Assembly (NCBI GenBank): GCA_014238965.1
Contig: JABAAC010000200.1
Location: 1-56,191, forward strand
Direction: 5' to 3'
DNA length: 56,191 nucleotides
Source of the DNA: Phycisphaerales bacterium
GTDB taxonomy: Bacteria; Planctomycetota; Phycisphaerae; Phycisphaerales; SM1A02
Shown: in pieces, positions 12,236 to 23,883 of the stretch
How the letters are laid out: every line of letters starts with the position of its first letter
Numbering within the stretch: the stretch's first letter is position 1
Notes under the pieces: model-generated
Told to the model about the DNA's origin: nothing
What the model saw: only the letters and a program-made list of their open reading frames with translations
Database searches by the model: none
Made by a program: the position numbers and the translations under genes

Positions 12236-13639
12236 ATGGTCCTTCGCTCATGTCCAACCCTCGTCACAGCGCTCCTCGTTGGAGCCTGCAGCGACGTCGC
12301 CCCAGACCCCACACCATTACCAGCAGGCGTTGCATTAGCGGATCCGGTCATTCGCGAGGCAATTGAATCTGCCTGGACAACCACCCAAGCATCTCCAAGG
12401 AGCACTGAAAACTGGCTCCAGTTGGCACTCCTCCTCGATGGGAACGGCTTTGATGCCGCAGCAGCCAGGGTATGGACGACCATGGAATCGCTGGCTCCAT
12501 CTGATGGCCGCCCGCACTTCTTTCTGGCCTTGCAGGCCGCCGAACAAGGCAATTGGGACATTGCGCTTAAACGCATGCAACGCGTTCGAACCTTAGCGCC
12601 AAATCACAGCCCCGCTGCATGGCGACCTGGATTCTGGCTTCTTGATCTTGGTGATGCTCAAGCAGCACGGGCACTGTTCCAACAGGCGTTCGACACCGAT
12701 GCCACTGCAGCTGCTGCCGTCATTGGCATGGCCCGGGCGGATCTCGCACTAGAACGAACCGACGCTGCGATCACGCGACTGACCCAATTGGCACAGCAAA
12801 CAGGGCACCCCTACACGATCTACCTATTGGGGCAAGCCCTTCGACGTGGCGGCCGTGGCCAGGAGGCTGCATCACTCCCCATTACTGGTACGCCTGCGGT
12901 GCCTCGATTTCCTGATGCGTGGAATGCAGCCTTGCTCGACGCCCAACGTGGACTAGATGGAGAGCTCGCCCGTGCGGATCGCCTCTTGGAAGAAGGCCGC
13001 ATAGACGATGCCAGTTTGGCAATCAAACGAGCGCTCGTCATCTGGCCCGATCACGTCCATCTACTGAATCGATTAGGCGAGGTCTATCGACGCAACAACG
13101 ATGCCGCAAAGTGGGTAAGAATCCTCCAACGAGCGGCGCGACTGGACCCAGAGTCCTTTCAATCGCACCTCAATCTCTCAATGGCCCTTCGAGCTAAAGG
13201 CGATTCCGAACAAGCACTTCGTGCTGCGATCATCGCTGCTCGATTGCAACCAGATGTGCCCGAGGGCCACCTGCAGGTAGCACGCATGCACCTGCTTGCC
13301 AAACGACCCATCGAAGCTATCGCTGCAATGGAGCAGGCGTTTGCCCTAGGGGTCACCGATCCCCAAGAGCACGTGCAGTTTGCCAGAGCGCTCGTGCAGA
13401 CACAGCGGACCGATGAGGCCATTGAACGACTTGACGATGTACTGAAACGAACGCCCACATTACCCAATGGCTGGATCATTCTGGCCCAAGCGCATGCAAT
13501 TGCTGGACGACCACGAATTGCACTTGAAGCAGCCAAAGCGGGCCTACGTCACAATCCCGGCCATCCACAACTTCGCCAACTGTCCCGTGATCTGTCACGG
13601 GGGATTCAGGGCCAATCGAATCAGGAGAACGACACGTGA
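12236..13639 (+). CDS. TPR-repeat lipoprotein
   Basis: This 467-residue protein has a lipoprotein signal ending in LLVGAC, followed by TPR-type helical repeats over almost its whole length (for example LNRLGEVYRRNNDAAKWV and SHLNLSMALRAKGD). TPR proteins hold protein complexes together; here the likely place is the periplasm. ATG 12236 gives the lipoprotein signal directly; upstream in-frame ATGs would bury it. The stop overlaps the start of the next ASPIC/UnbV gene by GTGA, so the two are translationally coupled. The divergent partner also begins with TPRs. No enzymatic motif is seen. Confidence 0.88.
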   Translation: MVLRSCPTLVTALLVGACSDVAPDPTPLPAGVALADPVIREAIESAWTTTQASPRSTENWLQLALLLDGNGFDAAAARVWTTMESLAPSDGRPHFFLALQAAEQGNWDIALKRMQRVRTLAPNHSPAAWRPGFWLLDLGDAQAARALFQQAFDTDATAAAAVIGMARADLALERTDAAITRLTQLAQQTGHPYTIYLLGQALRRGGRGQEAASLPITGTPAVPRFPDAWNAALLDAQRGLDGELARADRLLEEGRIDDASLAIKRALVIWPDHVHLLNRLGEVYRRNNDAAKWVRILQRAARLDPESFQSHLNLSMALRAKGDSEQALRAAIIAARLQPDVPEGHLQVARMHLLAKRPIEAIAAMEQAFALGVTDPQEHVQFARALVQTQRTDEAIERLDDVLKRTPTLPNGWIILAQAHAIAGRPRIALEAAKAGLRHNPGHPQLRQLSRDLSRGIQGQSNQENDT

Positions 13640-15336
13640 AGCGACTGTGCTTGCTTGTGTCATTCGCTGCATTGTCGCTGACCGCGTGCGATGACACGCC
13701 TTCGTCATCGAGTGTGCAAGACAGTGCGGGCACTGCTGTGGACCCACCAATGGTCTGGCTTCAAAACAACAGTGCTCGTATGGGTGTTGACCAGCAATGG
13801 CATTCCGGAGCACGTGGCGAGTACTTCATGCCGGAGATCATTGGTGGCGGTGGCGCATTGTTCGATGCCGATGGTGACAACGATCTTGACTTGTACCTTG
13901 TGCAAGGTGGCAAGATCTCCGCTACTGGCATCATGCCCGGTGATCATCCAAATGTATTCATGACCAACGATGGACAAGGCGCCTTCAAGGTTGTCACAAG
14001 CGGCACAGAAGACACTGGCTATGGAATGGGCGTAGCAACGGGCGATATAGACAATGACGGCGATGTAGACCTCTACGTGCTGAATGTGGGCGAAAACAAG
14101 CTGTACGAAAATGACGGCTCGGGCCAATTCACCGACATTACGGAAGCATCGGGGGCTGGCGACAACGCATGGGGGTCATCAGGCACATTTCTTGACTATG
14201 ACCGTGACGGCGATCTCGACTTGTACGTCGTGAACTACCTTTCATGGTCACCTGCCACAGCACTTGACTGCATCGGATCTGGCGGCAACCGCGACTATTG
14301 CTCCCCCAGCAATTTCATGGCCCCATCTGTGGACCGATTATTTCGAAATGATGGCAACAACACGTTCACCGACGTGACTGTTGAGTCAGGCATTGTCACG
14401 CGACCTGGCACTGGGCTGGGCATCGTATCTGTCGATTTTGATAATGATGGCTGGCAAGACATCTTTGTAGCCAACGACCTGATGCGGGACCACCTATGGC
14501 GCAATCGCGGCGATGGCACATTCGAGGAGATAGGCTTGGCCACTGGCTGCGCCATGGATGATGAAGGCGTTGCAAAGGCTGGCATGGGCGTCGACGCCAA
14601 CGACATTGACGATGACGGTGACTTTGATCTGATTATCTGTAATTTGAAGGGCGAGTCGGATTCACTATTCCGCAATGACGGCGACTACTTCGTCGACATA
14701 ACGGCCCAGAGTGGACTGCGAACAACAACACGAGCCAACACCCGCTTCGGTGTTGGATTCGCTGATCTGAATAATGATGGATGGCTCGACCTGTATGAAG
14801 CCAATGGCGCGGTGCTTCGTCCAAACCACAAGATTGATGGCGACCCATATGCGCAACGCAACTTATTGCTAAAGGGCTCGCCCTCGGGCAAATTTGTGCC
14901 AACACAGTTGCGTGGAGGTACCAAAGACGGCCAACAACTGACAACTCGTGCAGCATTATTCGGCGACCTCGATCGTGACGGTCGACTTGACGTCGTTGTC
15001 ATCAACCGAGACGCCCCTGTTGAGATACTGCTCAATACCACCTCGGCGGCGCTACCATCAGTGACGCTGGACATTCGAAACACACATGATGCACCCGCAC
15101 TGGGCGCCTTTGTTCGAGCGACACTTGGTGACCGCACTATTACCCGCCCAGTCAAGTCAGGTTATTCCTACATGGCCGCCAACGATCCACGCGTGCACAT
15201 TGGACTTGGCCGCCAGGCAATGCTTGAAGATGTGACGGTGCATTGGGTCGACGGCACGACCACATCATTTGGCGACCTCTCTCCCAAGTCCCTGCACCGT
15301 CTCATTCAACCTGATGCGGATGATGGCAGCCCATAG
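13636..15336 (+). CDS. CRTAC1-like FG-GAP/ASPIC-UnbV lipoprotein
   Basis: This 566-residue protein has a lipoprotein signal ending in LSLTAC. FG-GAP/VCBS blades with D.DNDGD-type calcium loops cover about residues 60-440, and a C-terminal ASPIC/UnbV domain covers about 475-550 (LGAFVRATL, VHWVDGT). The GTG start at 13636 overlaps the upstream stop by 4 nt and has AGGAG at 13623-13627, 8 nt before it. It is the third ASPIC/UnbV protein of the cluster and the second of the plus-strand unit. It is probably lipid-anchored and calcium-binding; the substrate or partner is unknown. Confidence 0.9.
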   Translation: MKRLCLLVSFAALSLTACDDTPSSSSVQDSAGTAVDPPMVWLQNNSARMGVDQQWHSGARGEYFMPEIIGGGGALFDADGDNDLDLYLVQGGKISATGIMPGDHPNVFMTNDGQGAFKVVTSGTEDTGYGMGVATGDIDNDGDVDLYVLNVGENKLYENDGSGQFTDITEASGAGDNAWGSSGTFLDYDRDGDLDLYVVNYLSWSPATALDCIGSGGNRDYCSPSNFMAPSVDRLFRNDGNNTFTDVTVESGIVTRPGTGLGIVSVDFDNDGWQDIFVANDLMRDHLWRNRGDGTFEEIGLATGCAMDDEGVAKAGMGVDANDIDDDGDFDLIICNLKGESDSLFRNDGDYFVDITAQSGLRTTTRANTRFGVGFADLNNDGWLDLYEANGAVLRPNHKIDGDPYAQRNLLLKGSPSGKFVPTQLRGGTKDGQQLTTRAALFGDLDRDGRLDVVVINRDAPVEILLNTTSAALPSVTLDIRNTHDAPALGAFVRATLGDRTITRPVKSGYSYMAANDPRVHIGLGRQAMLEDVTVHWVDGTTTSFGDLSPKSLHRLIQPDADDGSP

Positions 15337-16436: not shown

Positions 16437-16514
16437 GTCAGGTGTCCTTTGCCGCGGTGATCCCTCACCACGAAGCGGGTTGCTGAATGCTACCAGCGAG
16501 CGACACGTTCGGGC

Positions 16515-16520
16515 TACACT
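16515..16520 (+). promoter_or_regulatory. Possible -10 element TACACT
   Basis: TACACT followed by GTCGG resembles the other -10 sites of this window. It would start a transcript near 16527, giving about an 80-nt leader before the gene at 16607. No clear -35 is seen. Confidence 0.3.
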
Positions 16521-16606
16521 GTCGGATTGCCCGGGTATGCCGGGCCCGGAGCTTTCCCTTGCCAACCACACGGACACCATGGACTGACCAGTTTCGCACC
16601 CCCACG

Positions 16607-17011
16607 GTGCCTCAATTGCGGAAGAACCTGCAAGCAGAGGCAGCAGACCTCTTCGATCGCACTCGAAAGACCATTCTGGCATTCGACGACATCGTTGAAG
16701 AACCCCGTTGGTACGGCGATTGTTGGTTCTGGTCGCTTGGGTACTTTCTGACGCATGAGCGACTTGAAGACGACAACCCCGTCGCGCTGATCATTCCCGC
16801 AGCGGAGGATTTGCAACTGGCGATGCCTCTGGAAGCAGCATTCATCAAGACGTTGAATGTGCGTCGACTCAAGCGAGCGATCCGCGACGGATTAGAACTT
16901 GGACAGGAACCCTTCCACACGCGCTGGGCAGTGTGGTCCCTGACCGCCAATAGCGTGACCGATGAGATCCTCTCGGTTTTGACGCAACGGCACCGCTGGC
17001 TCATGGGCTGA
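16607..17011 (+). CDS. Hypothetical protein, about 134 residues
   Basis: The coding character is convincing from about VPQLRKNLQ onward: charged, amphipathic and rich in Trp. Segments include WYGDCWFWSLGYFL, a proline/alanine stretch near ALIIPAAEDLQ and a C-terminal helix EILSVLTQRHRW. I do not recognise a family. GTG 16607 was chosen because the sequence upstream of it looks non-coding; ATG 16487 would add 40 unlikely residues. Neither start has an SD. There is no signal peptide or membrane helix, so it is probably cytoplasmic. Its 3' end overlaps the convergent operon by 11 bp. Confidence 0.6.
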   Translation: MPQLRKNLQAEAADLFDRTRKTILAFDDIVEEPRWYGDCWFWSLGYFLTHERLEDDNPVALIIPAAEDLQLAMPLEAAFIKTLNVRRLKRAIRDGLELGQEPFHTRWAVWSLTANSVTDEILSVLTQRHRWLMG

Positions 17012-17663
17012 CGAGCAGCGCTGCAGGCAATGGTGCAACGTCGCTGCGCAACTCAAGCATCGCAAACACGTCATCGCGCATTGGTGTCGACATTGCAGCA
17101 ACAACTGCGCGTAATGTGGCTGGTGCATCACGACAAAGGACAATTGCATCAACCATGCGTTGCGCTGCGAGCATTCGATCATCTTGGGACAGCGCTAGCC
17201 AGATGGTCCCTAGCGATTGAACATAGCCCATTATCTTGCCGTCTCGCCTGACCGAACCCTTGGCGATGCTCTGCGTAAGCCCAAGCATCAAGGCATCAAC
17301 ATCGACCGTAGCATGTGCTCGTGGCTCATGGACGACATGCGGCTGCAAGGTTGGCAGGCCGGCGGACACGTTGGCCTTTGCTGACGTAAGAGGCATGTTC
17401 GGAACAGGCTCAATGAACGTCGCACCCGTGTGCTCTGGTCCACTTGGATTGCTAACGTCTTGATCGAGCATCGCCCACAACATGACGGCGACGAAAACCC
17501 CAGCGAGCACCACCGCAAGCGTGCCAAAGTCTCCTGTTGAACGGCTCCCGGGAACGCTCTGGAGCGGCTGCACAGGCTCCGCCCCAACTGCAGTACTCAG
17601 CTTGGAGCCCCGTGGCCCAAGCAGTCCAGCTCGCTTGAGCCGCAATAGTCGACGACGATTCAT
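17001..17663 (-). CDS. Single-pass membrane protein, last gene of the TonB-VWA/ExbBD operon
   Basis: This 220-residue protein has a basic cytoplasmic N-terminus (MNRRRLLRLKR), one membrane helix near 48-66, a low-complexity linker and a helical C-terminal half. The helical part (about 125-215) is alanine/leucine rich, like the solenoid protein encoded just upstream. Its ATG overlaps the stop of that gene by ATGA (17660-17663), so the two are translationally coupled. No family is recognised. It probably projects its helical domain into the periplasm and belongs to the same complex as the ExbB/ExbD proteins; this is inferred from the operon alone. Confidence 0.78.
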   Translation of the reverse strand: MNRRRLLRLKRAGLLGPRGSKLSTAVGAEPVQPLQSVPGSRSTGDFGTLAVVLAGVFVAVMLWAMLDQDVSNPSGPEHTGATFIEPVPNMPLTSAKANVSAGLPTLQPHVVHEPRAHATVDVDALMLGLTQSIAKGSVRRDGKIMGYVQSLGTIWLALSQDDRMLAAQRMVDAIVLCRDAPATLRAVVAAMSTPMRDDVFAMLELRSDVAPLPAALLVSP

Positions 17664-19879
17664 GGTGCACCACCAGAGGGCTGACCATTGAGTGAGGCAA
17701 CCACACCCTTTGCGGCCGTGCCTAATGCGCTGCCCGCATGCAAGACGGCAAGTTGCTGAGCAAGATCACGGGCAGCTTCGACATCAACATGGGCGAGCGA
17801 GCGAGCCTGCTCCAGTTTGCATTCACCTGCCAACACTCCACCAAGATCCGCGGCACGACCCCACGCTCGAATCGCAACTGGCCATCGTGCACGTTCCGAG
17901 GCTGCTTGGCCCAGCAACATCAATCCACCTTGGTCAAGAACGTCAAGCGCGGCCGCATGTTCCATGGCAACACCCGTCATCTCGCCACTGCCTGCAAGAT
18001 GCCGTGCCCAGTGCCTCAAAATAATCTGATCCTCCGCCGTGACTTCATCAACCCTACAAGCCATTGGCGAACGGCCAAGCACACGCGATGCCAAGGCATC
18101 AGCGGCTGATCCAAGCGGCGATGGGGTTGCCAACACATCGCGAGCCACGTGAATCAACCGTTGATCACGCAGCCCTCGAGCCCATGCGCCTTGCAAGGTT
18201 TGCAAAGCCAATTCGGTATTGCCCAAGGCCAGTTCAAACGCCGCAGTTGCCCCGCGGCCTGCAGCAGGCCCGTGCGCATCGGCAATTGCCTCTGCCGCAC
18301 GAGTCGCCATCACCTGCATACGCATCGGATCAAGTTGGGCGTACAGCAACACCGCAAACAATCGTTCCGCGGCGGCCGCTGCGTCAGGACCATCAAGATT
18401 CAAGACTGCGTGACTTGCCATGGCAGAGGCCAACGCACCTCGGCCAGAGCGTTGCCACATGCTCCAAGCGACAACTTCACGTTGCCGGATGACAAATGGC
18501 TGCAGCACATTGTCTTGGGGAATGGACGCCAACAGCGCTATTGCCACGTCATCCTGGGTCGATGGCAATGCAGCAAGACGCAGCGCAGCCTCGTGCCGCA
18601 ACGGTGCCTGAGGACTGCGTGCCGCCATACGTTCCAGCAGCACGCTAAAGCTAGGATCACGAGGGGCCAAAACATCTGACGGAGCCACCTGCAGCATGGC
18701 AACCATCGCCACTGCGTCGGCCTGAGCCTTATGCTCCCCCGCAGGAATCGCTCGGGCAACATCAAGTGATGCGCTGTGCTTGCCTGCCCCAGCAAGTACA
18801 CGAGCGAGTACCAATTGCAATTGGGGATCCTCACCATCGATGGCGATGGCAGCATCGATGAACCCCTTTGCTGCCTCGTACGTCAGCACGCCACGCTGGG
18901 CTCGCCCAAGCGCGGCATGCGCCGCAACACTCTGGCCCCCAGTGGGCAACGGGCGATCCGCCAAATCCAGCGTTTCAATCACTCGAGTGTTCACGCCGCG
19001 GCCTTGCAGCGCCAAGAGCACATGGACATCCAAGGCCGGGGCACTGGACAACATCGATAGCAAGGTGTCAACGTGCAGCCGTGATTCCCATTGGGCCAAT
19101 ACGTCATCTCGTATCTCCTGGGGCATGGCTAGCAGCACGTCTTGTACGAGCGCCGCTCCGGCTTGCTTAAGCACAGGCGAACGAACCTCGATGAGTCGAT
19201 CTGCCCATGCTTGTGCACCATTCACATTGCCCTGTTGCAAATCCAAGGTCGCCAACGCCAAGGCGGCCCAGGCCCCATCAACTGATTCAAGCATCACGCT
19301 GGGGATGTCTTCGATGGAATCAGGCCCCGGATCAACGCCATCGACCAGTGCAGCGCGAAGCGCCGAGGCGGCAGCAGCGGGCTGCTCTTGTAAGTAAATC
19401 TGAATAAGCCCACGGAGCAAACCTACCCGGCGATGAAGTGCCTCTAGCTTGCGCCGAGTTGATGAGTCCGTAGCCACCTTTAGATCGGCATCCAAGTCAT
19501 GACGCATCACCTGAGCAGATTGCAATGCACCTCGAAGCAGATCCCGACGGTTCGATCCCTCCGCCAGTAGTGCCGTTGCCCGATCGTCTGCCAGCAAGAC
19601 CAACTTGGCACGGTGTGCCTCTATCACATCCAGCCCACTGAGCAATTGCAGCAACTCAATCCTCGCCCGAACAGCGCCGGCGTCCCCAGGTGATGCCGAC
19701 GCGATTGCACCCATGAGGCCCTCGGCCACAATTGCACGGTCATTGACGTCGTGCGGCGGCGAGACCAACAACGCCTCCACCCCCAAGTTGGGGCACGCCA
19801 TGGAATCGAGCCATTGGGCAGTGCGAACCCAGTCGGCGGGGCCAAGAACACATGCCCCGGCCAAAATGACACCAATCAT
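17660..19879 (-). CDS. Exported helical-solenoid (TPR-like) protein
   Basis: This 739-residue protein is almost entirely Ala/Leu-rich helices in a TPR-like arrangement. It has a short hydrophobic N-terminus (MIGVILAGACVLG) that looks like an uncharged signal; the Cys could be lipidated, but the motif is imperfect. No catalytic motif is seen. Both ends overlap neighbours by ATGA: with the second exbD upstream and with the membrane protein downstream. In an operon with a proton-driven ExbB/ExbD motor it could be the periplasmic scaffold or load. The function is unknown. Confidence 0.82.
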   Translation of the reverse strand: MIGVILAGACVLGPADWVRTAQWLDSMACPNLGVEALLVSPPHDVNDRAIVAEGLMGAIASASPGDAGAVRARIELLQLLSGLDVIEAHRAKLVLLADDRATALLAEGSNRRDLLRGALQSAQVMRHDLDADLKVATDSSTRRKLEALHRRVGLLRGLIQIYLQEQPAAAASALRAALVDGVDPGPDSIEDIPSVMLESVDGAWAALALATLDLQQGNVNGAQAWADRLIEVRSPVLKQAGAALVQDVLLAMPQEIRDDVLAQWESRLHVDTLLSMLSSAPALDVHVLLALQGRGVNTRVIETLDLADRPLPTGGQSVAAHAALGRAQRGVLTYEAAKGFIDAAIAIDGEDPQLQLVLARVLAGAGKHSASLDVARAIPAGEHKAQADAVAMVAMLQVAPSDVLAPRDPSFSVLLERMAARSPQAPLRHEAALRLAALPSTQDDVAIALLASIPQDNVLQPFVIRQREVVAWSMWQRSGRGALASAMASHAVLNLDGPDAAAAAERLFAVLLYAQLDPMRMQVMATRAAEAIADAHGPAAGRGATAAFELALGNTELALQTLQGAWARGLRDQRLIHVARDVLATPSPLGSAADALASRVLGRSPMACRVDEVTAEDQIILRHWARHLAGSGEMTGVAMEHAAALDVLDQGGLMLLGQAASERARWPVAIRAWGRAADLGGVLAGECKLEQARSLAHVDVEAARDLAQQLAVLHAGSALGTAAKGVVASLNGQPSGGAP

Positions 19880-20274
19880 GGCGAGGTCTCCAGGGTCAGC
19901 GTCACAACTCCCGCCATTCGAGCTTCGCGAATTGTTGCAACAACAGCCCCTGCTGAAACACCCTTGCGTGACCTAATGACGATGCCGGGCCCTCGCGGCA
20001 ACGCCTCAAGCACACGACGTAGCGCTACTGGCGTAGCAATAACCCGATCGCCAACGAGCCAACCTTCAGATTCCACCATGACATGCACTGGACGAACCAT
20101 CTGCTGCGTTTCCCCACGCGCGCCCAAAGAGGCCGCAACACGTGACTCTGGCTCTAACAGCGCTGTCGTGACGAGAAAGAACGCAAGCAACAGAAACACA
20201 AGGTCGACCAAGCCGGCGATGCGTACGACAGCTCGGTTTCGCGTTGATGCCTGTGTCCCTGATACCAGATTCAC
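19876..20274 (-). CDS. exbD: ExbD/TolR-type biopolymer transport protein (second copy)
   Basis: This 132-residue protein has a single membrane helix near 21-40 that carries the essential aspartate (D24 in GLVDLVFLLLAFFLV), followed by a periplasmic domain of about 90 residues. In the ExbB/ExbD and TolQ/TolR families that aspartate is part of the proton path. The proline usually found before it (TP..D) is absent here, unlike in the first copy. The start is GTG 20274, overlapping the first exbD stop by GTGA; the stop overlaps the solenoid gene by ATGA. Two different ExbD copies suggest a hetero-oligomeric stator. Confidence 0.88.
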   Translation of the reverse strand: MNLVSGTQASTRNRAVVRIAGLVDLVFLLLAFFLVTTALLEPESRVAASLGARGETQQMVRPVHVMVESEGWLVGDRVIATPVALRRVLEALPRGPGIVIRSRKGVSAGAVVATIREARMAGVVTLTLETSP

Positions 20275-20663
20275 TGTGGGGCATCCTTCCCAAGTGCAAG
20301 ATCGACACGCCCAATGCCCGCACGTCGCAATCGACCCGCCATCGCGGTCAGTGCCTCGGCCGGCGCAACTTGATCCACCCGAAGCAACACACGCGCGTCG
20401 GGCTCAATCCCATCTACTCCAACATCAGGCAGCGGCGGCCCATCAACGCGGCTACGCCACACACCGTCCTTGCCCAACGTGAGCACCACATCCCAGCCAG
20501 TGCCCTTGGCCGCCTCTCCCGGTCCGGCAACCAGATTCGCCGGCGGGTGAGACAATCGTGTGGCATCGGCTGCAACAAGGAAAAAAATGACCAGCAGAAA
20601 GACCACATCGACCAATGGGGTCAATTCAACGATGGCCCAATTTCGAGGCGAGACTCGTCTCAT
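20271..20663 (-). CDS. exbD: ExbD/TolR-type biopolymer transport protein (first copy)
   Basis: This 130-residue protein has one membrane helix near 11-33 with the canonical motif ELTPLVDVVFLLVIFFLV, including the proton-conducting aspartate D19. A periplasmic domain follows. It should form the proton channel with the ExbB protein encoded directly upstream; the genes overlap by ATGA at 20660-20663. It is closer to the family consensus than the second copy. Confidence 0.92.
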   Translation of the reverse strand: MRRVSPRNWAIVELTPLVDVVFLLVIFFLVAADATRLSHPPANLVAGPGEAAKGTGWDVVLTLGKDGVWRSRVDGPPLPDVGVDGIEPDARVLLRVDQVAPAEALTAMAGRLRRAGIGRVDLALGKDAPQ

Positions 20664-21316
20664 GCTGCGCCCTGTTTCATAAGCGGCGACAGGACCGACT
20701 CCATCACAAGCCCCGCTTCAGCAGCAATGCCCTCCAGTCGTACACGAAACCAAGCGTGCAAGGCCACACATGGAATGGCCAATGAAAGCCCCAGCAGGGT
20801 TGTCACAAGCGCGAGGCTAATACTCGATGCAAGTTCTGGAGCTGCGTGAGGACCTTGGTCTCCGATAGCCTGAAATGCATCAACCATGCCAAGCACTGTG
20901 CCAAGCAGTCCAAGGAGTGGCGCAATGGCGGCAATAACGGACAAGCCCTCTAGGGATCGACTCAGCCGCGCAACCTCGGCAACGCCTGCCTCCTCGGCTG
21001 CCTCGTGAACCTCCAATGCACCAAGTGGCGAGTTACGCATTCGCGTGATTGCAGCAGCGGCCATGCTTGCGGGCAGCCCATCTCCACGGTGCTTTTTACA
21101 CGTTGCAAGTGCACCCTCAAGATCTCCGCGCTGTACACAACTGCTTATTGCTTCAATCTGCACACTCGGCAGTAATCGACTGCGACGAATGCTCCACATA
21201 TGAAGAAAGACCAGCGCCAAGGCCACAATTGACAAGCCAAGCAAGATCCAGCCGATTGTGCCGCCTGCTTGAACCAATGGCAGCAAGCCTCCCTCGAGAG
21301 CCAATATGTATGTCAT
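20660..21316 (-). CDS. exbB: MotA/TolQ/ExbB proton channel family protein
   Basis: This 218-residue protein has three membrane helices near 21-41, 127-148 and 163-186, separated by the cytoplasmic domain typical of ExbB/TolQ. The conserved core AIAPLLGLLGTVLGMVDAF and the third helix with SISLALVTTLLGL are clear. ExbB pentamers surround an ExbD dimer and use the proton gradient to drive a TonB- or TolA-like protein. Both gene ends overlap neighbours by ATGA (21313-21316 and 20660-20663). Confidence 0.93.
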   Translation of the reverse strand: MTYILALEGGLLPLVQAGGTIGWILLGLSIVALALVFLHMWSIRRSRLLPSVQIEAISSCVQRGDLEGALATCKKHRGDGLPASMAAAAITRMRNSPLGALEVHEAAEEAGVAEVARLSRSLEGLSVIAAIAPLLGLLGTVLGMVDAFQAIGDQGPHAAPELASSISLALVTTLLGLSLAIPCVALHAWFRVRLEGIAAEAGLVMESVLSPLMKQGAA

Positions 21317-22119
21317 GTCACGTTCTCCAAACGGGTGCGCAATACTGTGCGCAGTGCTTCGTATTCAGCGCGGACGCGTTCTTTCGCCTCGCCACTGGTG
21401 CTTTCCATCAAAATTCGTAATGCATGCAGTGCAAGCCGCGGGTGCGATTCGCGAAGTTCGCTTTCCGCGGCGATTCTCGACAAATGCACCAACCCACGAC
21501 GCTGACTTCCAGGCGACTGCTCTACCAAGTGCGATCGGCCAATGATGTGCAGTCGCCATGCCTGTTCTTGCGGATCGACAGTGGTTCGTTGCAGTCGCCC
21601 ACGCGCAGCCCTCCGCTGCCGATCGTCTCCGGCAAGTGCCAATGCAGCATCACGCCATGGAGTTGGTGCATGTTGCGCGGCTGGATCGAATTGCAGCGTC
21701 AGAATGGACCGCAGTGCACCGCGCACACCATCGACACGCTTGGAAGTTGAAACTGTTGTGGCAAGCAACTGCAACAACATTTCCTTATCTGCTCCTTCAG
21801 GCATGATTGGAGCAAGCCCCCACGGCATCAACCAACGTGAATCAATCTGCTCGGCGAGCGCCTTACTTGGCACCTTGCCACGATCTAATGCTTCCAGCAC
21901 GTCCAGCAGCACTGAGCACGCACCGATGGCGTCGCCGCGTGTCAATCGTGCCACAAGCAGCACATCGGCATTTGGAGTGCCATCCACCGTGCGTTCATCC
22001 AATGCATTGGCCTCCAGCACCAACACTTCCGCCTGTGCATAAAGGCCTGCATCCAAGAGCGCAAAGGCGTCTGCACGCACGTCGCCCAGAAGCATCAAGA
22101 CCAGCAGTGCACAACTCAT
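21313..22119 (-). CDS. Exported helical protein of unknown function
   Basis: This 268-residue protein has a signal peptide (MSCALLVLMLLGDVRA, probable cleavage after VRA) followed by alpha-helical, TPR-like sequence (AFALLDAGLYAQAEVLVLEA...). No enzymatic motif is seen. It starts at ATG 22119 inside the TAATG junction with the VWA gene and ends overlapping exbB by ATGA. It is probably periplasmic and part of the same complex; no family is recognised. Confidence 0.82.
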   Translation of the reverse strand: MSCALLVLMLLGDVRADAFALLDAGLYAQAEVLVLEANALDERTVDGTPNADVLLVARLTRGDAIGACSVLLDVLEALDRGKVPSKALAEQIDSRWLMPWGLAPIMPEGADKEMLLQLLATTVSTSKRVDGVRGALRSILTLQFDPAAQHAPTPWRDAALALAGDDRQRRAARGRLQRTTVDPQEQAWRLHIIGRSHLVEQSPGSQRRGLVHLSRIAAESELRESHPRLALHALRILMESTSGEAKERVRAEYEALRTVLRTRLENVT

Positions 22120-23042
22120 TACCGCGTGCTCCCAAACAGGCGATGCACTCCCCCACCAGTACCACGGGCCATTCGGGCAAGCCTACGCTGCGTTTCGGTC
22201 GGCGTTGACACTGGACCAATCAGCACGACATCCAGTTGGATGGTTGGCGCGAGGTCGATCCATCGCTGCAGCGCCCCTGCCTCGAGATCCAGAATGCCAC
22301 CGTCGGTCACCAAGACCACTGCATCGGCGCGAGCGTCCCCAAGCCCACCCTGATCAAAGAGCGCACTTGTGCGCGTCAGTCCAGAAGCCTCGGCAGCCAC
22401 CTGTTCTAGCGCATTGCATGCCATGTCGGCGTCGCGTTTCCATCGCCACTGGCTACCCAGTGGTTCATTGAGCCCGCCGCTGAAACACATCAGTCGAAAC
22501 TGCACTGACTCGGGCAATCCGTTCATTGCGGTACAAACTGCCTGTGCTGCAACCTCACCAAGCGTCGTGCCATCTCGAAATGATCCTCGCATGCTTGAGG
22601 ACACATCCACCATGAATACAACGCGGCGGGCACCAATGCGCAGTGGTCCCACTTGGACCTGAGGATCAGCCCCAGGCACTGCCCCCATCCCAAGGCCAGA
22701 TCCCCCCAACCCATTGCCCTTAGATGGCACACGTGCAGCTAGAAGCTCCGGCAATGGCACCTGGATACTGCTTGGCGAGGCGACAGTGTGAGCCTGCGGC
22801 GATGGAGCCTCATTGGGTGCCACGTTTGCCTGAATCGGCTCTGGGATCGCTGCCGCTGGCTGCAGATCCAGAGTCACAATCTCCAGAACGTCCATGCCAA
22901 CTGGCCCAGGCCACCGAATAATGCTCAGAAGCATGAGGTGCAGCAGCAGCGACGCCAAGATGACGATGACAAGGGGGACAAGGCGAATCAAGGCCCTTTG
23001 GGGGGCTGCCTCGACGATCTGGTTTCTCCCAACAAGGGCCAT
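22119..23042 (-). CDS. TonB-like N-terminus fused to a von Willebrand A domain
   Basis: This 307-residue protein starts with a basic stretch and one membrane helix near 19-42 that contains S31-x3-H35. The same Ser-x3-His spacing is found in the TonB helix (S16/H20 in E. coli), which couples to ExbB/ExbD. A Pro/Ala-rich periplasmic linker follows (about 61-105). From about 138 to the end lies a VWA domain with a MIDAS: D146, S148, S150 (DVSSS) and D247 (VTDGG). The TonB C-terminal domain is thus replaced by VWA, a metal-dependent protein-binding fold. ATG 23042 was chosen because TAGTCT lies 7 nt before it; ATG 23099 and 23093 would add residues without hydrophobic or SD support. It leads a seven-gene operon with exbB and two exbD. 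Confidence 0.88.
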   Translation of the reverse strand: MALVGRNQIVEAAPQRALIRLVPLVIVILASLLLHLMLLSIIRWPGPVGMDVLEIVTLDLQPAAAIPEPIQANVAPNEAPSPQAHTVASPSSIQVPLPELLAARVPSKGNGLGGSGLGMGAVPGADPQVQVGPLRIGARRVVFMVDVSSSMRGSFRDGTTLGEVAAQAVCTAMNGLPESVQFRLMCFSGGLNEPLGSQWRWKRDADMACNALEQVAAEASGLTRTSALFDQGGLGDARADAVVLVTDGGILDLEAGALQRWIDLAPTIQLDVVLIGPVSTPTETQRRLARMARGTGGGVHRLFGSTR

Positions 23043-23118: not shown

Positions 23119-23883
23119 ATGAGCGAATCGAGGTATCAACGCGTGCTACTGAAGATCAGTGGCGAGAGCTTTTCCAAGCCCGGGCAAACCGGTATTGACG
23201 CTGAAGAACTGCGATTGATCGCAAGTCAGATAGCCGATGCCGCCCAAGGGACGACTGAGATTGCTGTTGTGGTTGGTGGTGGCAACATGATTCGCGGAGC
23301 CAATTTGGCACGCCGCTTGAACATTGACCAAGCCACTGCAGACTACATGGGCATGCTTGGCACCGTGATGAACGGCATGGCGCTGAAGGAGGCTATCGAG
23401 TCCACTGGCGGAGAAGCAAGACTCCTCTCTGCAATCAACATGCCCGCAATTGGCGAGGCCTTCATTCGCAAGCGAGCACTTCGGCACCTGTCCAAACAAC
23501 GAGTACTCATTCTTGCTGCAGGGACCGGCAATCCATTCTTTACAACGGATACGTGCGCCGCTCTTCGAGCCGTCGAATTGAATTGCGACATCCTGCTCAA
23601 AGCAACAAAGGTCGACGGCGTCTACTCTGCAGATCCTGCAGCAGACCCAACGGCAACGCGATACGACCGACTTAGTTTCAAAGATGCGGTTGATCAACGT
23701 CTTGGCGTTATGGATCTCACTGCATTGTCAATGTGCATGGAACACAACCTGCCCATTCGAGTGTTTGACTTCAAAGAACACGGAAACATCAAAAAAGTCA
23801 TTAACGGCGCAGACATCGGCACCATGGTCGACAACTCGCCTACGACTACGACTAGCGAGATCGGGAGCGACCATGTCCTCTGA
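23119..23883 (+). CDS. pyrH: Uridylate kinase (UMP kinase)
   Basis: This 254-residue enzyme phosphorylates UMP to UDP with ATP in pyrimidine nucleotide synthesis, in the cytoplasm. It belongs to the bacterial hexameric amino acid kinase family: LLKISGES at the N-terminus, the glycine-rich GGGNMIRG, the nucleotide-site stretch AGTGNPFFTTDTCAALRA and KVDGVYSADP. Length matches the family. ATG 23119 (MSESRYQRV) begins at the family's usual position. The usual rpsB-tsf neighbours are absent, but frr follows with an 11-bp overlap, the common pyrH-frr pairing. Confidence 0.97.
   Translation: MSESRYQRVLLKISGESFSKPGQTGIDAEELRLIASQIADAAQGTTEIAVVVGGGNMIRGANLARRLNIDQATADYMGMLGTVMNGMALKEAIESTGGEARLLSAINMPAIGEAFIRKRALRHLSKQRVLILAAGTGNPFFTTDTCAALRAVELNCDILLKATKVDGVYSADPAADPTATRYDRLSFKDAVDQRLGVMDLTALSMCMEHNLPIRVFDFKEHGNIKKVINGADIGTMVDNSPTTTTSEIGSDHVL

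Follow-up and report, generated by a model that had tools for sequence, protein, structure and literature searches.

The vWA force transducer family was first described in 2025, when Williams-Jones et al. (PMC12204202) reported proteins with a transmembrane helix that carries a Ser/His motif, a disordered proline-rich linker of about 100 residues and a C-terminal vWA domain. Their traits include an SHLS motif and a motor box, which is a beta strand soon after the helix; in the PVC group their genes adjoin TPR, tolQ-like and paired tolR-like genes, and AlphaFold3 models of homologues place the transducer helix on the motor (PMC12204202). The same work describes a second family, the TolQ-linked TPH-vWA pairs, in which a VWA protein is likewise coupled to a TolQ-like motor, but the pairs have neither the S/H motif nor an ExbD linked to them, and the proton-binding Asp is their own (PMC12204202). 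No second description of vWA force transducer systems was found in the literature searched. A cryo-EM structure of TonB-ExbBD from E. coli shows TonB Ser16 and His20 touching ExbB Ser34 and Trp38, which lead on to Pro190 (PMC12215075).

Here we analyse an operon of a Phycisphaerales bacterium which, judged from its sequence, is a member of the kind that Williams-Jones et al. described. It shares with the described transducers the Ser/His transmembrane helix, the Pro-rich linker and the C-terminal vWA domain (the comparison with that family, whose reference is from Tichowtungia, being one of features), and here too the linked genes are TPR, TolQ-like and paired TolR-like ones. The original prediction, made from the window (the whole stretch of 56,191 nucleotides that was analysed), had taken this make-up to be undescribed, which the 2025 publication contradicts. 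In the Phycisphaerales system the VWA gene comes first, whereas in the described family it is often downstream, and further differences are the two TPR proteins, genes 7 and 8, and a fixed place beside pyrH-frr.

A seven-gene operon with a VWA protein, an ExbB and two ExbDs

Reading of the open reading frames placed seven genes in 17001-23042 of the window, all on the minus strand (Table 1), in agreement with the frames and strand given before, and the junction overlaps of 1, 4, 4, 4, 4 and 4 nt along the operon bear out the earlier description of junctions overlapping by 1 or 4 nt. The proposed set of an exported protein, ExbB, two ExbDs, an exported solenoid and a single-pass protein was also recovered, with the reservation that the signal peptide of the window solenoid (SOL) is only weak by eye; it is clear in many SOL orthologues. 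Pfam searches of the seven operon proteins matched ExbD in ExbD1 and ExbD2 (1.1e-8 and 3.2e-9) and gave no accepted family for EXP2, SOL or TM7. The source genome is an assembly of 211 contigs with 6.7% contamination, a concern that is eased by agreement with two congeners. Elsewhere in the window, a convergent ORF of 174 aa (16487-17011, plus strand) shares 11 nt with the 3′ end of TM7, and a large exported protein, FG-GAP-like as judged by eye, is encoded at 13636-15336 (plus strand).

Table 1. Features of the VWA operon and its neighbour, in window coordinates
Feature	Position	Strand	Description	Basis
VWA force transducer (putative)	22119-23042	-	307 aa; TM helix 24-42, S31-x3-H35, Pro/Ala/Gly-rich linker, C-terminal VWA domain	ORF; Pfam VWA_2 2.4e-6; family alignment
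S31-LLL-H35, predicted motor-docking motif in the VWA TM helix	22938-22952	-		Motif conservation
MIDAS DVSSSM	22590-22607	-	VWA residues 146-151	Alignment of 49 family members
Further MIDAS ligand T223	22374-22376	-		Alignment
Further MIDAS ligand D247	22302-22304	-		Alignment
EXP2	21313-22119	-	268 aa; exported, all-helical, TPR-like	Alignment; AF2 model; TPR-like fold matches
ExbB/TolQ-type motor subunit	20660-21316	-		Pfam MotA_ExbB 8.4e-27; alignment with E. coli ExbB and TolQ
ExbD1	20271-20663	-	TM motif TPLVD, with both Pro and Asp19	Pfam ExbD
ExbD2	19876-20274	-	TM motif AGLVD, with Asp but no Pro; start codon GTG	Pfam ExbD
SOL	17660-19879	-	739 aa; exported, all-helical TPR solenoid	hhalign; orthologue AF2 model; profile match
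TM7	17001-17663	-	Single-pass protein; truncated relative of ~950-aa gene 7	HMM; hhalign
pyrH	23119-23883	+	Divergent neighbour in conserved position; context, not part of the operon	

The VWA protein and its motor

The original prediction had credited the first gene with an S31/H35 helix, a Pro-rich linker and a VWA domain with an intact MIDAS, and these residues were found where claimed. Ser31 and His35 lie within the single predicted transmembrane helix, the linker (approximately residues 43-135) is of low conservation, and the MIDAS is complete (D146-S148-S150, T223 and D247), its five ligand columns being invariant across 49 family members. The VWA family profile matches solved VWA domains, at best with 2.2e-14. 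The His is one of 13 invariant columns in the first VWA family alignment, and the Ser is nearly invariant. Indeed, S-x3-H is present in 80 of 84 distinct VWA helices, the others having A-x3-H (2) or S-x3-N (2), as compared to 6 of 278 N-terminal single transmembrane helices from non-VWA proteins of the same loci. The S-x3-N helices belong to the VWA genes of L037 and L074 and to L080:8737-9837, where motor genes are linked. As for the SHLS motif, the window protein has its S/H half, and at 11 and 15 residues past the Ser, where the motif has L and S, it has I42 and G46. As regards the motor box, what the sequences show is a conserved hydrophobic stretch past the helix, reading EFATLxxEEL in relatives and DVLEIVTLDL at residue 51 in the window.

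The ExbB of the window carries the docking serine (S29), the pore threonines (T140 and T173) and P182 in alignment with S34, T148, T181 and P190 of E. coli ExbB, and all four equivalents are invariant in 71 of 71 operon ExbBs; the position of E. coli Trp38 is mostly Leu or Val in the same set. Placement of the first transmembrane helix differed in a smaller alignment, and with TolQ added it became that of the large alignment. A pair of different ExbDs is likewise conserved across loci. The proline of the transmembrane motif, which is present in 54 of 70 ExbD1 and 7 of 73 ExbD2 proteins, was considered as a diagnostic of the two and rejected, this being a tendency only. The idea of a hetero-stator, raised on first inspection, is not proven by the proline alone. 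The system has in common with TonB-ExbB-ExbD the motor type, the S16/H20-type helix and the equivalents of ExbB Ser34, Thr148, Thr181 and Pro190, and differs in that the TonB C-terminal domain is missing, the two ExbDs are unlike each other and the genus yielded no TonB-dependent receptor. Linkage, S/H conservation and the ExbB Ser and Thr residues together support, as an architecture, the earlier proposal in which an ExbB/ExbD motor is coupled to a TonB-like transducer that ends in a VWA domain, and on this sequence evidence we consider it very likely that the VWA protein is built as a motor-docked force transducer.

Conservation of the gene order

The original prediction pointed to the gene order in Phycisphaerae genomes as a check, and the order recurs both in congeners and across Phycisphaerales. 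The seven-gene set is also present in two congeners (L025, L026), and the first six genes stand in unchanged order in most other relatives from the VWA search. A scan of 84,980 genomes returned 80 loci, of which almost all bear a Planctomycetes label, most of the latter being Phycisphaerales or Phycisphaerae. Reading frames were taken from stop to stop and assigned with HMMs, since antisense ORFs outcompete the genes of these GC-rich loci under longest-ORF calling. Where at least 4.5 kb of downstream sequence was available (70 loci), VWA, ExbB and two ExbDs occurred together in 65, with EXP2 detected in 57 of these, and VWA with EXP2 and no motor genes was found in 5. Furthermore, pyrH adjoins the operon in 89 of the 89 loci with sufficient upstream sequence, a count for which a few loci were drawn twice, from two collections. 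The retention of gene order in relatives, together with the excess of S-x3-H over control helices, argues that the arrangement is not due to chance; it is genuine, and almost universal within a single planctomycete order, the Phycisphaerales.

At E 1e-10, 374 of the 397 genomes in the class have a match to the VWA-family profile, part of these matches being VWA domains only, and for this reason the idea of an operon in every genome of the class was rejected. EXP2 was detected in few families of the class, with 8 candidates scored per genome, so that its absences are weak. Families f12, f13, f18 and f20, which belong to the class as well, have the order VWA-ExbB-ExbD-ExbD-SOL with EXP2 not detected. 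Two loci of the same phylum outside the class (L180 and L181, family f92) carry all of the genes, EXP2 and gene 7 among them, with no pyrH alongside, and most S-x3-H VWA transducers sampled elsewhere, from further families of this class and from another class of the phylum, are also motor-linked. The two VWA matches outside Planctomycetes (L095, L098) have neither the helix nor the motor.

TPR proteins linked to the VWA gene

Throughout the order a protein of about 870 aa is encoded directly after ExbD2, and the window SOL is a diverged, shorter orthologue of it (hhalign, 98.8% probability over 706 columns). The AF2 model of a SOL orthologue consists entirely of helices (pLDDT 93), and a search with the SOL family profile retrieved consensus TPR proteins (2.5e-29). 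By profile and model, the solenoid is a long TPR protein. EXP2, which lacks the N-terminal domain of its orthologues in the alignment, is also modelled as all-helical (pLDDT 91), and its TPR-like fold matches reach a best Z of 10.0, which is under the decisive level for helical repeats. Apart from such TPR-like matches, searches of Pfam, NCBIfam and solved structures were uninformative for EXP2, gene 7 and gene 8. Because families f12, f13, f18 and f20 keep SOL with the VWA and motor genes where EXP2 is not detected, SOL is the more constant companion of the VWA protein.

Gene 7 of the order encodes a single-pass protein of approximately 950 aa and is often followed by an exported gene 8. TM7 is related to it: the TM7 of a congener matches the gene-7 HMM at 2.2e-17, and the TM7 profile of the genus aligns with gene 7 by hhalign at 82% (E 1e-5, 59 columns). 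The TM7 of the window is a remnant of gene 7. In two loci (L047:15434-18376 and L107:13777-16581) the cytoplasmic N-terminus of gene 7 appears J-domain-like by eye, and neither protein has a Pfam match. With its shorter SOL and truncated TM7, as compared to the order's ~870-aa SOL, ~950-aa gene 7 and frequent gene 8, the operon of the window genus is a reduced form of an eight-gene operon.

Loci without motor genes and a second VWA operon

The five loci without motor genes (L101, L106, L107, L115 and L123) lack them between EXP2 and SOL and hold VWA, EXP2, SOL, gene 7 and gene 8 together. This arrangement might suggest that the VWA protein is a motor-anchored assembly or regulatory factor, such as a metal-dependent scaffold for the TPR proteins, which transmits no force. 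VWA domains often scaffold complexes, and these loci do keep VWA, EXP2 and SOL with no linked motor. However, S-x3-H is intact in the VWA protein of all five, and other ExbBs are present in all five genomes; in three of them a separate ExbB-ExbD-ExbD cluster is near the operon type (194-200 bits, versus 114-145 for other ExbBs). Such retention of the docking motif and of related motor genes elsewhere leaves the scaffold reading improbable beside that of a force transducer.

That the operon motor had simply moved elsewhere in the motor-less genomes was considered and rejected, the ExbBs of L144, L146 and L147 forming a clade of their own with another cluster, found in L076 next to a complete operon. 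Since the tree groups these separate clusters in this way, the motor of L144, L146 and L147 may be a paralogue that took over and serves in trans.

A second, diverged VWA operon was identified in the genome of the window itself (C102:39183-43846, equal to L040:7184-11847). It encodes a VWA protein with an S-x3-H helix, an ExbB, an ExbD with the proline, an ExbD without it and an exported protein of 704 aa. Of 61 genomes (own and relatives), 60 contain a match to this VWA protein, and the best matches are full length. Its MIDAS is degenerate, the first motif being kept and the later Thr and Asp lost, which implies that metal-dependent gripping is not general. By hhalign, the solenoid of this operon showed no sequence link to SOL.

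Possible roles in import, gliding or envelope maintenance

Given a TonB-type motor and helix, the operon could conceivably be a diverged nutrient-import (Ton) system in which VWA takes over from the C-terminal domain of TonB to open transporters in the outer membrane; two ExbDs are known in some Ton systems, such as Xanthomonas with exbD2. The searches speak otherwise. Pfam gave no TonB_C (PF03544) match in the VWA protein, the whole genome or the genus, and no Plug domain was found in the genus or in several operon-bearing relatives; the operon itself has TPR solenoids instead of a receptor gene. Together with the absence of TolB_N (PF04052) from all 61 genomes, own and relatives, these results make import through TonB-dependent receptors unlikely, and the Ton reading is the one to which we give least credence. 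A TonB/Tol role may also be filled elsewhere in the genome, because on another contig (C145, L135:8985-10654) an ExbD gene is followed, downstream of a gyrA-like gene, by one for a 413-aa Pro-rich TonB-like protein with an S-x3-N helix. This protein has no Pfam match and may be a TonB- or TolA-like arm beyond the reach of Pfam.

Gliding or adhesion offers another comparison. In Myxococcus, AglRQS comprises an ExbB with a pair of ExbD/TolR subunits and acts alongside TPR proteins that are exported (PMC3169522), a VWA protein (CglB) is involved as well, and gliding was named as one possibility by the discoverers of the transducer family (PMC12204202). The VWA domain would then pass force toward a surface adhesin. 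CglB, however, is a separate surface adhesin that is not fused to a motor-docking helix, and no Glt envelope protein, adhesin or outer-membrane protein was recognised among the genes of this operon, which is moreover near-universal in one order and fixed in a locus beside housekeeping genes. We therefore regard an AglRQS-Glt-CglB-like motor, which is an argument from analogy, as improbable.

With TolQRA-TolB-Pal-CpoB the system shares the motor type, an exported TPR protein and housekeeping-like conservation, and it differs in the missing TolB_N, in having no Pal in the operon and in a VWA domain that replaces the C-terminal domain of TolA. OmpA-type domains are present in all 61 genomes, and a Pal-like OmpA lipoprotein is encoded on another contig (C71, L134:5574-6239) with no tol neighbours. 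The absence of TolB_N, along with that of TonB_C and Plug in the genus, hints at an envelope role of the Tol type. A housekeeping function of this sort, rather than nutrient import, is a guess by analogy to which we would give rather less than even weight.

Discussion

Taken as a whole, the explanation that we favour, and consider somewhat probable, is that the operon encodes a proton-driven trans-envelope machine whose VWA arm is docked on the motor and grips a periplasmic TPR partner. Five ExbB subunits would make up a motor that surrounds two ExbD helices, of which one probably comes from ExbD1 and the other from ExbD2, and the transmembrane helix of the VWA protein would dock on ExbB via Ser31 and His35, as TonB and TolA do. 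The proline-rich linker would span the periplasm, the VWA domain would grip its partner through the metal-dependent site, and upon proton flow the arm would pull or remodel that partner. Counted against this explanation are the Trp38 of the E. coli docking network, which is not conserved in ExbB, the VWA loci without motor genes, the two helices with Asn for His, one of which lies beside a motor, the degenerate MIDAS of the second operon and the TonB-like protein on C145.

The partner would most likely be SOL with EXP2. A solenoid partner had been suggested from the window, and it is plausible, as SOL stays with VWA both in the motor-less loci and where EXP2 is not detected. We would put the grip on SOL, for which this co-retention is the support, at slightly below an even chance.

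As far as the searched literature shows, the Phycisphaerales gene set with its fixed locus and the TPR solenoid SOL as constant partner are new, as are the motor-less derivatives and the presence of two systems per genome. The vWA transducer family has been known only from the bioinformatic description of 2025, which came without a phenotype. A defined gene set, with VWA, motor and long TPR solenoid as its core, tells which proteins to study together, and it turns the pulling target of the VWA domain into an answerable question. More speculatively, and at long odds, the VWA machine could replace Tol-Pal in Phycisphaerales as an envelope-maintenance or division motor that pulls on SOL, a giant periplasmic solenoid, where Tol-Pal would use TolB-Pal, with the MIDAS-degenerate second copy doing a related job. 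If this were true, the tip of a force transducer would be exchangeable for an unrelated fold.
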